A stretch of DNA of 64,000 nucleotides, from assembly GCF_007751715.1 (NCBI RefSeq), contig NZ_CP036292.1, positions 1,178,001-1,242,000 of the forward strand, read 5' to 3'. Positions 12,534 through 27,402 of the stretch are shown here, in pieces (position 1 is the first letter of the stretch; every line of letters starts with the position of its first letter). The notes beneath the pieces are model-generated. The model ran no database searches. It saw nothing but the letters and a program-made list of their open reading frames with translations, and was not told where the DNA came from. The DNA is from Rosistilla oblonga (GTDB taxonomy: Bacteria > Planctomycetota > Planctomycetia > Pirellulales > Pirellulaceae). Both the position numbers and the translations under genes were made by a program.

Positions 12534-12576
12534 TTCATCGCGGCGAACATTCCGCTTTGCTCGCGGCGTGGTGGCT

Positions 12577-12625
12577 TGGCAGAATAAAAGGATTCGATGG
12601 CGATATCGAATTCTTGATTCTGCCA
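12577..12625 (+). promoter_or_regulatory. Hairpin with GGCAGAAT arms directly before the GxxExxY gene
   Basis: TGGCAGAAT (12577-12585) pairs perfectly with ATTCTGCCA (12617-12625), and after a small bulge ATTCGAT pairs with ATCGAAT around a ~6-base loop. The outer arm is the same sequence that is repeated downstream of the gene. The purine-rich GAGGTGAAG ribosome-binding region begins right at the hairpin's end and the ATG is 14 bases downstream, so folding or protein binding here could control translation. The structure is visible; the role is inference. Confidence 0.6.
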
Positions 12626-12638
12626 GAGGTGAAGTGCC

Positions 12639-13442
12639 ATGCCGATCTATGTGGATGCGGAGATCCAGGTATTCTCGGAGCCTGAGTTTCATTCGCTGGC
12701 CGAACGGGTTGTTGGTATCGCGTTTGACGTCCATCAATCTTTTGGACGTTTGCTGGACGAAGAGATCTACAAGAATGTGATCTCTGGCCGTTGTCACGCT
12801 GCGGGAATTGTTCCGGCACGGCGTGAAGTGGAAATCGTCGTCCAGCACGACGATTTTCGAAAATCGTATTTCATGGACAGCTTGCTCGCTAACGGCCTGA
12901 TGGTCGAGGCGAAGGTGGTCGAGGAGCTTGCGGATGTTCATCGGGCCCAGGCGATCCACTATCTATTGCTGACCGGCATGCATCATGGACTGCTGCTTAA
13001 TTTTCGGCCGGGGAAAGTGGAGAAGTGGTTCGTTTCGACGTCGCTTGATTTGAACGAGCGGCGGCGGTTTGAGATCGACGATTCCGATTGGCAGCCACGC
13101 ACCGTTGCAAGTCGAAAGCTTCGGCGACTTGTCGAAGATCTGCTGCTCGACTGGGGAGCCTTTCTGCAGACTTCACTCTATCGACAAGCGATCACTCACT
13201 TTTTTGGTGGCCCTGAGATCGCGTTGCGTCGCGTTCCTGTTTACGACGCCGGGCGGCAGGTGGGCACTCACGAAGTCTGCATGCTGGAAGAAGGTACTGC
13301 AGTGGCTGTTACCGGTTTAAGTTCCGGTCAACCTGCAATGGCCGATCATCTTCGTCGGTTTCTCTGGCACACCGATCTAACAACCGTGGACTGGGTTAAC
13401 CTCGACAAACACCAGATCACCTTCCGGACAATAACAGTTTAA
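12639..13442 (+). CDS. GxxExxY-family protein with C-terminal extension (PD-(D/E)XK nuclease-like)
   Basis: 267 residues. The first ~130 match the GxxExxY family: an Ala/Val-rich helix leading to FGRLLDEEIY (equivalent of GxxExxY, with Leu in place of the Gly), then EVEIVVQHDD, a VEAK strand (~89-92; the D/E-x-K metal-site motif), AQAIHYLLLTGMHHGLLLNFRPGKVE (the most typical segment). The family is structurally related to PD-(D/E)XK nucleases, but its biochemical function is not established. Residues ~135-267 are an extension I do not recognise. A hairpin lies just upstream and a ~970-bp repeat array begins 34 bases after the stop, both carrying GGCAGAAT. Probably an accessory or mobile unit inserted between nrnA and the ABC exporter. 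Confidence 0.82.
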   Translation: MPIYVDAEIQVFSEPEFHSLAERVVGIAFDVHQSFGRLLDEEIYKNVISGRCHAAGIVPARREVEIVVQHDDFRKSYFMDSLLANGLMVEAKVVEELADVHRAQAIHYLLLTGMHHGLLLNFRPGKVEKWFVSTSLDLNERRRFEIDDSDWQPRTVASRKLRRLVEDLLLDWGAFLQTSLYRQAITHFFGGPEIALRRVPVYDAGRQVGTHEVCMLEEGTAVAVTGLSSGQPAMADHLRRFLWHTDLTTVDWVNLDKHQITFRTITV

Positions 13443-13476
13443 CGCGGTCTCTTGAAAAGAAGAAGCAGGATGATGT

Positions 13477-14445
13477 TGGCAGAATGATGGGGCGGTAGGA
13501 TTTTAGGTGAATGAATTGGCAGACTGCGCCAATACTCTGTCGCCCAAATTGCAATAGAAGCAACCTTTGTAGCTGTCTACTTAGAGAATTGCTTTCTTAT
13601 TATTCTGCCCCCATCATTCTGCCACTTGTTATTGCCTGATTCGCTCGGCAGGAATGCAGTGTAGGTTGGCAGGATGATTGGGGCAGAATGATCCGGCGGT
13701 AGACTTTTTTAGGATGAATGGGCAGAACGTATCAAAGCTCATCCGTCTGCATCGCAACTAAGCCATTCTTCGTTAGACATCTGCTTGAAACCGTTTCTTA
13801 TCATTCTGCCCCCATTATTCTGCCACTTGTTATTGCCTGATTCGCTCGGCATGAGTGCTTTGTGGGTTGGCAGAATGATTGGGGCAGAATGATCCGGCGG
13901 TAGGATTCTTTAGGATGAATGGGCTGGCCGTATCAAAGCTCATCCGTCTGCATTGCAACTAAGCCGTTCATCGTAGGCATCTGCTTGAAACCGTTTTTTA
14001 TCATTCTGCCCTCATTATTCTGCCACTTGTTATTGCCTGATTCGCTCGGCAGGAATGCTGTGTAGGTTGGCAGGATGATTGGGGCAGAATGATCCGGCGG
14101 TAGATTTTTTAGGATGAATGAATGGGCAGGACGTATCAAAGCTCATCCGTCTGCATCGCGACAAAGCCATTCTTCGTAGACATCTACTTGGAATCGTTTC
14201 TTATTATTCTGCCCCCCATTATTCTGCCACTTGTTATTGCCTGATTCGTTCGGCAGGAATGCTGTGTAGGTTGACAGGATGATGGGGGCAGAATGATCCG
14301 GCGGTCGGCTTTTTTAGGATGAATGGGCAGACCGTATCAAAGCTCATCCGTCTGCATTGCAACTAAGCCGTTCTTCGTAGACATCTACTTGGAACTGGTT
14401 CTTATTATTCTGCCCCCATTATTCTGCTACTTGCTATTCCCCGAT
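13477..14445. repeat. Tandem array of five ~200-bp units with iteron-like GGCAGAATGAT pairs
   Basis: Units begin at 13477, 13667, 13868, 14068 and 14272 (lengths ~190, 201, 200, 204 and a truncated ~170). Each opens with two direct copies of GGCAGAATGAT set 14 bases apart and, ~110 bases later, has two copies of the complement ATnATTCTGCC, again 14 bases apart, followed by CACTTGTTATTGCCTGATTCG. Neighbouring pairs face each other and form long inverted repeats. The first unit is the most diverged. The intervening segment (GTATCAAAGCTCATCCGTCTGC and onward) is also conserved between units 2-5. No coding potential is credible. Function unknown: a protein-binding array, a recombination site or RNA hairpins are possible. 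Confidence 0.92.
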
Positions 14446-14472
14446 TCCTCATTTGCCTCAGCATCGGTCGGT

Positions 14473-26838: not shown

Positions 26839-27402
26839 CACCCGCCTAGCGGAGCTGGGAGGGTCGAAAAACAAGCGTTTAGCGAGTTTTTCGGGGAGGG
26901 CTTACTTTCATGACCAAGCGTCGTGGCTTTACCTCTCGGACTCCCCTCCCCGAACTTTGCTTCGCTCGTTCGACCCTCCCCTACAAACTGCGTTTGGGGA
27001 GGGTGAAGTCAGTTGTTAGAATCCCCTCATCTACACCCGCCTAGCGGAGCTGGGAGGGTCGAAAAACAAGCGTTTAGCGAGTTTTTCGGGGAGAGGCTTA
27101 CCGGCACCGATCGACCGGCCGGGATTTGACTCGAGAACTCCCCTCCCCGAACATCGCTCCGCTCGTTCGACCCTCCCCTACAAACTGCGTTTGGGGGGGG
27201 TGAAGTCAGTTGTTAGGATCCCCTCATCTGCACCCGCCTGGCGAAGCTGGGAGGGTCGAAAAACAAGCGTTTAGCGAGTTTTTCGGGGAGGGCTTACTTT
27301 CATGACCAAGCGTCGTGGCTTTACCTCTCGGACTCCCCTCCCCGAACTTTGCTCCGCTCGTTCGACCCTCCCCTACAAACTGCGTTTGGGGGAGGGTGAA
27401 GT
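26839..27402. repeat. Three tandem copies of a ~196-bp palindromic repeat
   Basis: Copies start at 26839, 27034 and 27231. Each begins CACCCGCCT, has GGGAGGGTCGAA paired with TTCGACCCTCCC ~110 bases later, and an inner pair TCGGGGAGGG / CCCTCCCCGA, so each can fold into a nested hairpin. Copies 1 and 3 share the same central segment (CTTTCATGACCAAGCGTCGT); copy 2 has an unrelated centre (GGCACCGATCGACCGGCC). The array ends 9 bases from the stop codon of the PVC haem protein. No open frame is credible. MITE- or REP-like origin is likely. Confidence 0.9.

Follow-up and report, generated by a model that had tools for sequence, protein, structure and literature searches.

What ties a gene of the widespread GxxExxY family to the short repeats that lie on either side of it? 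The question is raised by a locus in a 64,000-nt stretch of Rosistilla oblonga DNA (contig NZ_CP036292.1, positions 1,178,001 to 1,242,000; hereafter the window), carried by a 7.25-Mb single-contig genome (G000). Here a hairpin, a GxxExxY gene and a tandem array stand in a row between nrnA and an exporter gene, and the core GGCAGAAT is common to all three parts. A preliminary description of the window had proposed that protein and DNA belong together, and our results bear this out: repeats flank most homologues, are specific to each gene, track the phylogeny of the protein and, at this locus, are missing together with the gene in a genome of the same genus. We suggest, with a probability of about 0.6, that the locus is a small selfish element composed of hairpin, nuclease gene and repeat array, which resembles the pairing of repetitive extragenic palindromes (REPs) with REP-associated tyrosine transposases (RAYTs) but is run by an unrelated nuclease.

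Repeats flanking the gene and its homologues

The anatomy of the locus is compact (Table 1). Upstream, TGGCAGAAT (12577-12585) base-pairs with ATTCTGCCA (12617-12625), and the hairpin so formed ends 13 nt ahead of the ATG at 12639. As DNA, positions 12570-12640 fold at -17.5 kcal/mol (z -6.0; 0/200 shuffles equal it), and the same hairpin is present in the congener G072. Downstream, each array unit holds a forward pair GGCAGRATGATnnnGGCAGAATGAT (variants occur) and an inverted pair, which fold as a hairpin. The pieces that run from an inverted pair to the next forward pair fold strongly (13595-13700, z -4.5; 13800-13900, z -5.4), whereas the longer piece from a forward pair to the next inverted pair folds less well (13866-14014, z -1.9). 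The 11-mer, with at most one mismatch, was found 18 times in the window against 1.4 expected, and 17 of these 18 copies are inside the array. The hairpin before the start codon, the GxxExxY-family gene (above the curated cut-offs of both family models, see below) and the tandem units with repeats in both orientations had all been claimed in the preliminary description and are real. Its statement that the same motif occurs on both sides of the gene holds for the shared core: the hairpin has just the 8-9 nt core (GGCAGAATAAA) of the array motif, and its left arm together with the 11 bases upstream matches an array copy at 17/20 positions.

Is this arrangement peculiar to one locus? The window protein has a C-terminal domain (~aa 130-267) that is missing from short GxxExxY proteins, and the subfamily sharing this domain, here called long, matches at 75 places in 47 of the 241 family genomes. 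We used the 69 full-length loci and left out six partial matches (four of the 47 genomes have partial matches only). Long homologues were found in three of 392 genomes drawn across the phylum, own genome included, when the best six candidates per genome were scored; the phylum-level matches in G163 and G243 were kept out of the counts, and locus L209 was likewise unused. The 33 short loci comprise 32 that were picked by hand, not drawn at random, and L051 of the own genome. Repeats were counted de novo in the 400 bp on each side of the gene, and shifted windows served as controls. A 9-mer present at least four times was found in the flanks of 52/69 long loci, compared with 2/68 and 3/66 windows shifted by 1.5 kb and 2.5 kb, and in 15/33 short loci versus 2/33 at the 1.5-kb shift. 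Similarly, an exact word of at least 12 bases was common to both flanks in 48/64 long loci (shifted, 1/50 and 3/45) and 21/33 short loci (shifted, 1/30). In long loci the median distance to the nearest repeated word is 27 nt upstream of the start codon and 12 nt downstream of the stop codon, and such words occur on both sides in 55 of 64. Hairpins are also stronger beside long genes (mean z -2.1 and -2.0 on the two sides, versus -0.1 and -0.1 at 1.2 kb) and, more weakly, beside short ones (-0.8 and -2.0 versus -0.3 and -0.4).

The flanking repeats belong to each gene, not to its genome. In the 14 genomes that have at least two long genes with usable flanks, 29 of 38 genes have at least 12 bases common to their own two flanks, whereas the upstream flank of one gene and the downstream flank of another share as much in 2/74 comparisons within a genome and 29/392 between genomes. 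In addition, pieces of the gene itself occur in the surroundings of some loci. The array units of L112 repeat the first 20 bases, that is the first codons, of the gene, and pieces of 27-96 bases lie near L132, L141, L154, L176, L186 and L193; at L132 and L154 the piece is the end of the gene running on into the repeat. Judged by their sequence, these pieces look as deletion derivatives or gene duplicates would. At the short GxxExxY loci L186 (G019) and L193 (G077), where pieces of 96 and 50 identical bases recur nearby, the pattern suggests tandem gene copies.

Table 1. Positions of the parts of the locus in the window
Feature	Position	Strand	Description
Upstream hairpin	12577-12625	.	9-bp outer stem TGGCAGAAT/ATTCTGCCA and ~12-bp inner stem
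Long GxxExxY protein gene	12639-13442	+	267 aa; PF13366/TIGR04256 by hidden Markov model (HMM) scores
Partial first unit of array	13465-13592	.	two forward repeats at 14-nt spacing; 22 nt past the stop codon
Tandem array	13593-14447	.	period ~201 bp, 4.2 copies
Whole block	12544-14463 (ends approximate)	.	in G000 and G072, missing in G006 of the same genus

The array is not of the clustered regularly interspaced short palindromic repeat (CRISPR) type: the entire unit repeats, its interior included, without unique spacers, the 117-nt copies at ~200-bp spacing being 85-95% alike and the adjoining stretches 72-91%. The window holds a further long tandem array at 26839-27402, with 2.9 copies at a period of 197 bp and sequence of the GGGAGGGTCG...TTCGGGGAGGGC type.

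Dispersal, turnover and covariation with the protein

The motif had been described as occurring nowhere else. This is true within the window and false for the genome, where 80 exact copies of GGCAGAATGAT, against 0 of the reversed control, rule out a motif unique to the locus. The copies are grouped at ~20 places that hold 1 to ~20 tandem units, often with a facing inverted set. When clusters of at least two units (at most one mismatch) are considered, 16 of 24 are outside open reading frame (ORF) calls, lying between convergent ORFs in eight cases, tandem ones in seven and divergent ones in one; the other eight overlap ORF calls, some of which are perhaps spurious. The second GxxExxY gene of G000 (L051) has no copy of GGCAGAATGAT within ~5 kb. 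It has a different upstream repeat, in three copies and on one side, which is below the threshold for flank repeats. Other repeats occur near the dispersed clusters as well: units of the TGGCGAGG...GTAGCAGAACGGACTT type recur several times between two GGCAGAATGAT clusters at L036 (G000:C1:573822-575786), and at L035 (~G000:C1:388320-388360) a CTCCGTGCCTTAGCGCCTCCGTGAG repeat near a GGCAGAATGAT cluster resembles a repeat that accompanies the short GxxExxY gene at L187. Going by L035, the same intergenic sites seem to house several repeat families. Elsewhere in this genome, at G000:C1:5935579-5936580, a Y1 (RAYT-like) match (5935803-5936144) lies between copies of another dispersed repeat, of the GCGGAGCGGCG...CATAAAGCCTGG type; the two look like a conventional REP/RAYT pair.

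Comparison of congeners shows that the block is present or absent as a whole. In G006 the nrnA side and the exporter side are joined by ~20 unrelated bases, with no remnant of hairpin, gene or array at this site, whereas G000 and G072 have the 1.9-kb block. A second case is a short GxxExxY gene with its array, which is present in G072 and G006 (L180:4358-5514 and L179) and absent in G000 (1781 versus 96 bp), the flanks of the empty site being 94-95% alike across congeners. Its array, downstream of the gene, consists of ~133-bp units with CACAGAG...CTCTGTG; the layout is like that of the window locus, with an unrelated motif. A third gene, L187, gave no clean empty site and was not used: the distance between its flanks is ~20 kb in G000 and 2.7 kb in G006.

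The dispersed repeats change in number between species too. At one orthologous site G072 has ~20 extra 14-mer units; another has 8, 1 and 2 units in G000, G006 and G072; a third has four units in G000 versus one or two, partly degenerate, elsewhere. Among the comparisons listed, differences between species, some of them not clean, also occur at L035, L037, L048-L050 and the first L039 site. Nine orthologous-site comparisons were made, and the reading covers them apart from parts of the second L039 site, L042 and L043. For L033, L040 and L041 no flank match in G006 or G072 was among the matches listed, and other loci had one flank only. One motif locus (L224) has a 2.7-kb insert in G072, in which open frames of more than 150 codons were considered; one of them is presumably DUF1559-like.

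Across genomes, the motif goes with a particular branch of the protein tree. The window protein is in a nine-member clade (clade W, support 100/96) of a tree that was built without reference to repeats. The nine genomes belong to genera g1, g16 and g36, and all of them carry the motif pair GGCAGAATGATN{2,4}GGCAG (G000 47, G072 57, G016 2, G603 83, G604 198, G605 198, G606 133, G608 53 and G609 83 pairs). Among 231 other genomes, six have any such pair: at least two are found in G006 (12), G024 (6) and G493 (2), and a single one each in G496, G509 and G510; over all 240 genomes there is one occurrence of the reversed control. In genus g36, all six genomes with the clade-W gene have 53-198 motif pairs and all eight without it have none, one of the eight having another long gene.

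Several expectations of the preliminary description can be judged from these comparisons. The block sits between nrnA and the exporter as an insert would, given the empty site in G006. Neither of the two congeners compared carries the array here without the gene, G072 having both parts and G006 none. Gene and motif pairs do track each other, in 9/9 clade-W genomes compared with 3/231 others that have at least two copies. Relative to GxxExxY genes, the motif is indeed scattered as if at random for most of its copies within G000, and it is not so in its presence across genomes.

The motif follows the phylogeny of the protein, both within and across phyla. The local repeat is GGCAGAATGAT in the window, G072, G016 and G603, GGCAGAAAGAT in G060 and G009, GACAGAAAGATG in G081 and G084, GACAGGAAAATG in G077 and G013, GGGGCAAGAAAATG in G083, GGGCAGAGGAAT in G051 and GGTTATAAATGA in G024. 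Over the 179 of 182 loci that have a repeated 7-mer, motif similarity correlates with protein identity: rho is 0.36 for all pairs and 0.39 when the two loci belong to different phyla (0/300 permutations as high in either case, figures that are descriptive). When the windows are moved away by 800, 1200 and 1600 bp, rho is 0.03, 0.00 and 0.00; among short loci it is 0.29 (0/1000 permutations). The share of different-phylum pairs that have a motif in common rises from at most 1% below 45% identity to 15% at 45-55%, 31% at 55-70% and 51% above 70%. Motifs other than that of the window may be dispersed as well: in counts over 29 genomes, GGGGCAAGAAAATG occurs 18 times in G083, seven of these beside the gene, versus 0-2 times in the 28 others, and GACAGGAAAATG 43 times in G013, 14 in G077, 40 in G606, 28 in G603 and 13 in G604.

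Furthermore, we scanned named genomes for one short subclade, to which the best 80 of at least 579 loci belong by construction. These 80 loci come from Planctomycetota, Bacteroidota, Cyanobacteria, Acidobacteria, Verrucomicrobia, Chloroflexi and others. A 9-mer occurs de novo at least three times at 40/80 (shifted windows 4/80, 5/80 and 6/79), and at least 12 bases are found in both flanks at 42/73, compared with 13/62 at a shift of 1 kb and 2/57 and 2/52 at the others. Tandem CGCAAAGnnGCAAAG (CGCAAAG repeats, at most two mismatches) lies beside 72/80 loci versus 2/80 shifted windows, by a pattern that was written after inspecting the same loci; elsewhere it was found at 6/69 long loci (shifted, 3/69) and 5/33 other short loci (shifted, 1/33). 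Because the 16 phylum labels, assigned by us from record titles, need 29 changes on the subclade tree when the minimum possible is 15, gene and motif seem, by their sequences, to travel between phyla together.

A predicted Cas4-like nuclease

As the G of the literal G-x-x-E-x-x-Y is missing, the assignment of the window protein to the family rests on HMM scores: 73.6 bits against PF13366 (cut-off 22) and 72.8 bits against TIGR04256 (cut-off 35). L38 replaces the G, with G36 two residues earlier, and E41 and Y44 are kept; 15 aligned long relatives also have no G at this site. PF13366 is the sole Pfam family above its cut-off, and the Y1 transposase family PF01797 gave no match at E up to 1. The PD-(D/E)XK domain is N-terminal (HMM match aa 20-128), and its catalytic residues are conserved in the 69 full-length long proteins, own included: D80 in 69/69, E90 in 68/69 (one D) and K92 in 69/69.

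Modelled with 62 relatives, this domain reached a mean predicted local distance difference test (pLDDT) score of 85.8; a single-sequence model (pLDDT 33) was unusable. The closest solved fold to the model is the Cas4 protein SSO0001 (4ic1; Foldseek E 3.3e-5; VIA Z 10.0 over 99 residues at 3.8 A), and other Foldseek neighbours are the Cas4-like ACE1, AdnAB and lambda exonuclease. By VIA, R.SwaI, a restriction enzyme, comes next (Z 7.8), followed by a further Cas4 (Z 7.1). The domain is thus predicted to have a PD-(D/E)XK fold, probably of the Cas4/lambda-exonuclease kind, R.SwaI and others being close behind. The iron-sulphur (Fe-S) cluster of Cas4 uses four conserved cysteines, and no cysteine is among the invariant or nearly invariant columns of 16 aligned long homologues.

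Database comparisons gave little more. No sequence relative was found in the PDB at E up to 1, and neither PHROGs nor the PADLOC library of defence genes has a match for the window protein, which was for the latter reason rejected as a known defence gene; a 108-aa piece of one short homologue gave a weak match to PADLOC Cas4 (E 0.003). We found no assigned function for the GxxExxY proteins, and no report linking GxxExxY or PF13366 to repeats in the open-licence PMC literature, a source without preprints and with few subscription papers. Six repeat strings of the short family retrieved from it only papers that are, by title, about animals.

Interpretation, alternatives and known systems

How might such an element work? 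Most likely, the nuclease would recognise hairpins or duplexes of its own clade-specific 11-14-nt repeat and would cut or nick them, after which repair or replication would multiply the repeats, mostly in tandem and less often at new intergenic positions. Unlike a Y1 transposase, a PD-(D/E)XK enzyme would not be expected to rejoin ends itself, so that host repair or replication would have to finish the reaction. Dispersed arrays would then be non-autonomous progeny, as REPs and bacterial interspersed mosaic elements are for RAYT transposases. By such a mechanism, binding and cleavage would be specific, cleavage would drive the spread of repeats, and the element itself could be mobilised. It is tempting to extend this idea to the whole GxxExxY family, which occurs in many bacterial phyla: its members would be the enzyme half of a hitherto unrecognised kind of selfish element, Cas4-like nucleases that spread the short repeats specific to their clades in tandem and genome-wide; we would give this extension even odds.

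There are several points that weigh against the selfish-element reading. Cutting, binding and movement are unobserved. The 9-mer threshold is missed by 17/69 long and 18/33 short loci, and eight of the 69 long loci lack any 9-mer above two copies, some flanks being cut by contig ends. Most motif copies in G000 are far from any GxxExxY gene. No exact GGCAGAATGAT lies near L144-L147, that is near four of the nine clade-W genes; at L145 and L146, GGGGCAAGA and a word resembling GGCAAAACGATG are repeated locally instead. G006 retains its 12 motif pairs elsewhere without a clade-W gene. We read these pairs as probable relics after gene loss. The count of GACAGGAAAATG is less clean than that of GGGGCAAGAAAATG: it is also high in G606 and G603, where no gene was seen to have it as its main local repeat, and of G603, G604 and G606 only G604 has a noticed copy next to a long gene. 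By eye, neither empty site shows a clear target-site duplication, at junctions that are not base-exact; inverted repeats are present. As for covariation, the correlation is weaker among long loci (rho 0.12, 0/1000 permutations) and between short loci of the family and those of other phyla (rho 0.24, 2/1000 permutations as high), and these p-values, like those above, are descriptive because related genomes are not independent. The CGCAAAG count carries the further weakness of its after-the-fact pattern.

Could the association have arisen in some other way? Homing enzymes exist among PD-(D/E)XK nucleases, and the gene might have invaded pre-existing matching arrays that spread by other means. 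This would suit the fact that most repeat clusters, those of G006 included, have no gene; however, the split of genus g36 by presence of the gene speaks against it, as do the first codons in the units of L112 and the gene pieces at other loci, which are what internal-deletion derivatives would leave, and we consider homing unlikely. That the protein is an autoregulator, binding DNA sites beside its own gene and a regulon and keeping its catalytic residues for another reason, seems slightly less likely again. A hairpin placed over the leader, so close ahead of the start codon, is in its favor, but arrays of up to ~20 tandem sites with fast-changing copy number are not, nor is the near absence of dispersed clusters from divergent intergenic regions (1 of 16), which is atypical for promoters, nor the near-complete invariance of D80, E90 and K92.

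It could also be argued that no functional interaction exists and that the gene and neighbouring junk DNA are simply inherited or transferred together. Related loci do share gene and flanks by descent, and horizontal transfer carries flanks along. Yet pairs of 55-70% identity share a motif in 31% of cases within 400 bp (31% across phyla as well) and in less than 1% at 800-1600 bp, and repeats stand within a few tens of nt of both gene ends even in divergent homologues with unrelated repeats. Such inertia is thus improbable, and more so still is the idea of ordinary REPs that owe their spread to a Y1 transposase of the IS200/IS605 type encoded elsewhere in the genome, the GxxExxY gene being a passenger. 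G000 does contain five Y1_Tnp matches, but none is within 97 kb of the 22 exact-motif places checked, for which a RAYT was rejected as the partner; one RAYT of this genome has a different repeat of its own on its flanks, and a passenger is not expected to share its motif with homologues across phyla.

If the selfish-element reading is true of the GxxExxY proteins at large, the intergenic repeat families of the CACGAAG, CACAGAG and CGCAAAG type beside these genes would be explained, the GxxExxY family would gain a function, and unexplained repeat families in environmental bacteria would gain a cause. Moreover, the matched pairs of protein and motif would provide dozens of nucleases each with a predicted DNA partner, a code by which specificity could be tested, and the spread of bacterial short repeats would have a parallel to REP/RAYT with unrelated enzyme and chemistry.

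The proposed element resembles several known systems in part. By HMM its protein is a member of GxxExxY/PDDEXK_3 (TIGR04256, PF13366), within which the long subfamily stands apart by its extra C-terminal domain. In its modelled N-terminal fold and D...E-x-K site, the protein is like Cas4 and Cas4-like proteins (SSO0001, ACE1), lambda exonuclease and nucleases of the AdnAB/RecB type; unlike Cas4, it has no conserved-cysteine sign of an Fe-S cluster (Cas1 and Cas2 were not searched for). Miniature inverted-repeat transposable elements (MITEs) and other internal-deletion derivatives of insertion sequences are similarly dispersed, largely intergenic inverted repeats, and some of our loci have gene pieces as well; unlike MITEs, the present repeats have no defined ends, no target-site duplication was seen at them, and the 14-mer itself grows fast in tandem.

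The closest likeness is to REP/RAYT. Among the hallmarks of RAYTs are inverted short repeats on both sides of the gene, an excess of these repeats in the genome, a modular build of the arrays, and joint change of repeat and enzyme (PMC2817692); the REPs themselves are described as palindromes tagged with GTAG or CGTC (PMC3733652). Our 11-mer unit with its 3-4 nt spacers has, by eye, no constant GTAG or CGTC at its ends. In place of a 20-40-bp palindrome there is a non-palindromic word of 9-14 nt that forms hairpins only through inverted copies, and the flanked gene encodes a PD-(D/E)XK nuclease, not a Y1/HUH transposase. What the two systems have in common is the organisation: repeats with inverted copies on both sides of the gene, as in the window, with repeated words likewise two-sided at most long loci; repeats that are overrepresented and dispersed, as GGCAGAATGAT and the G083 motif are; and coevolution of enzyme and repeat. 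To our knowledge REP/RAYT is the sole analogue, similar in organisation and run by an unrelated enzyme.

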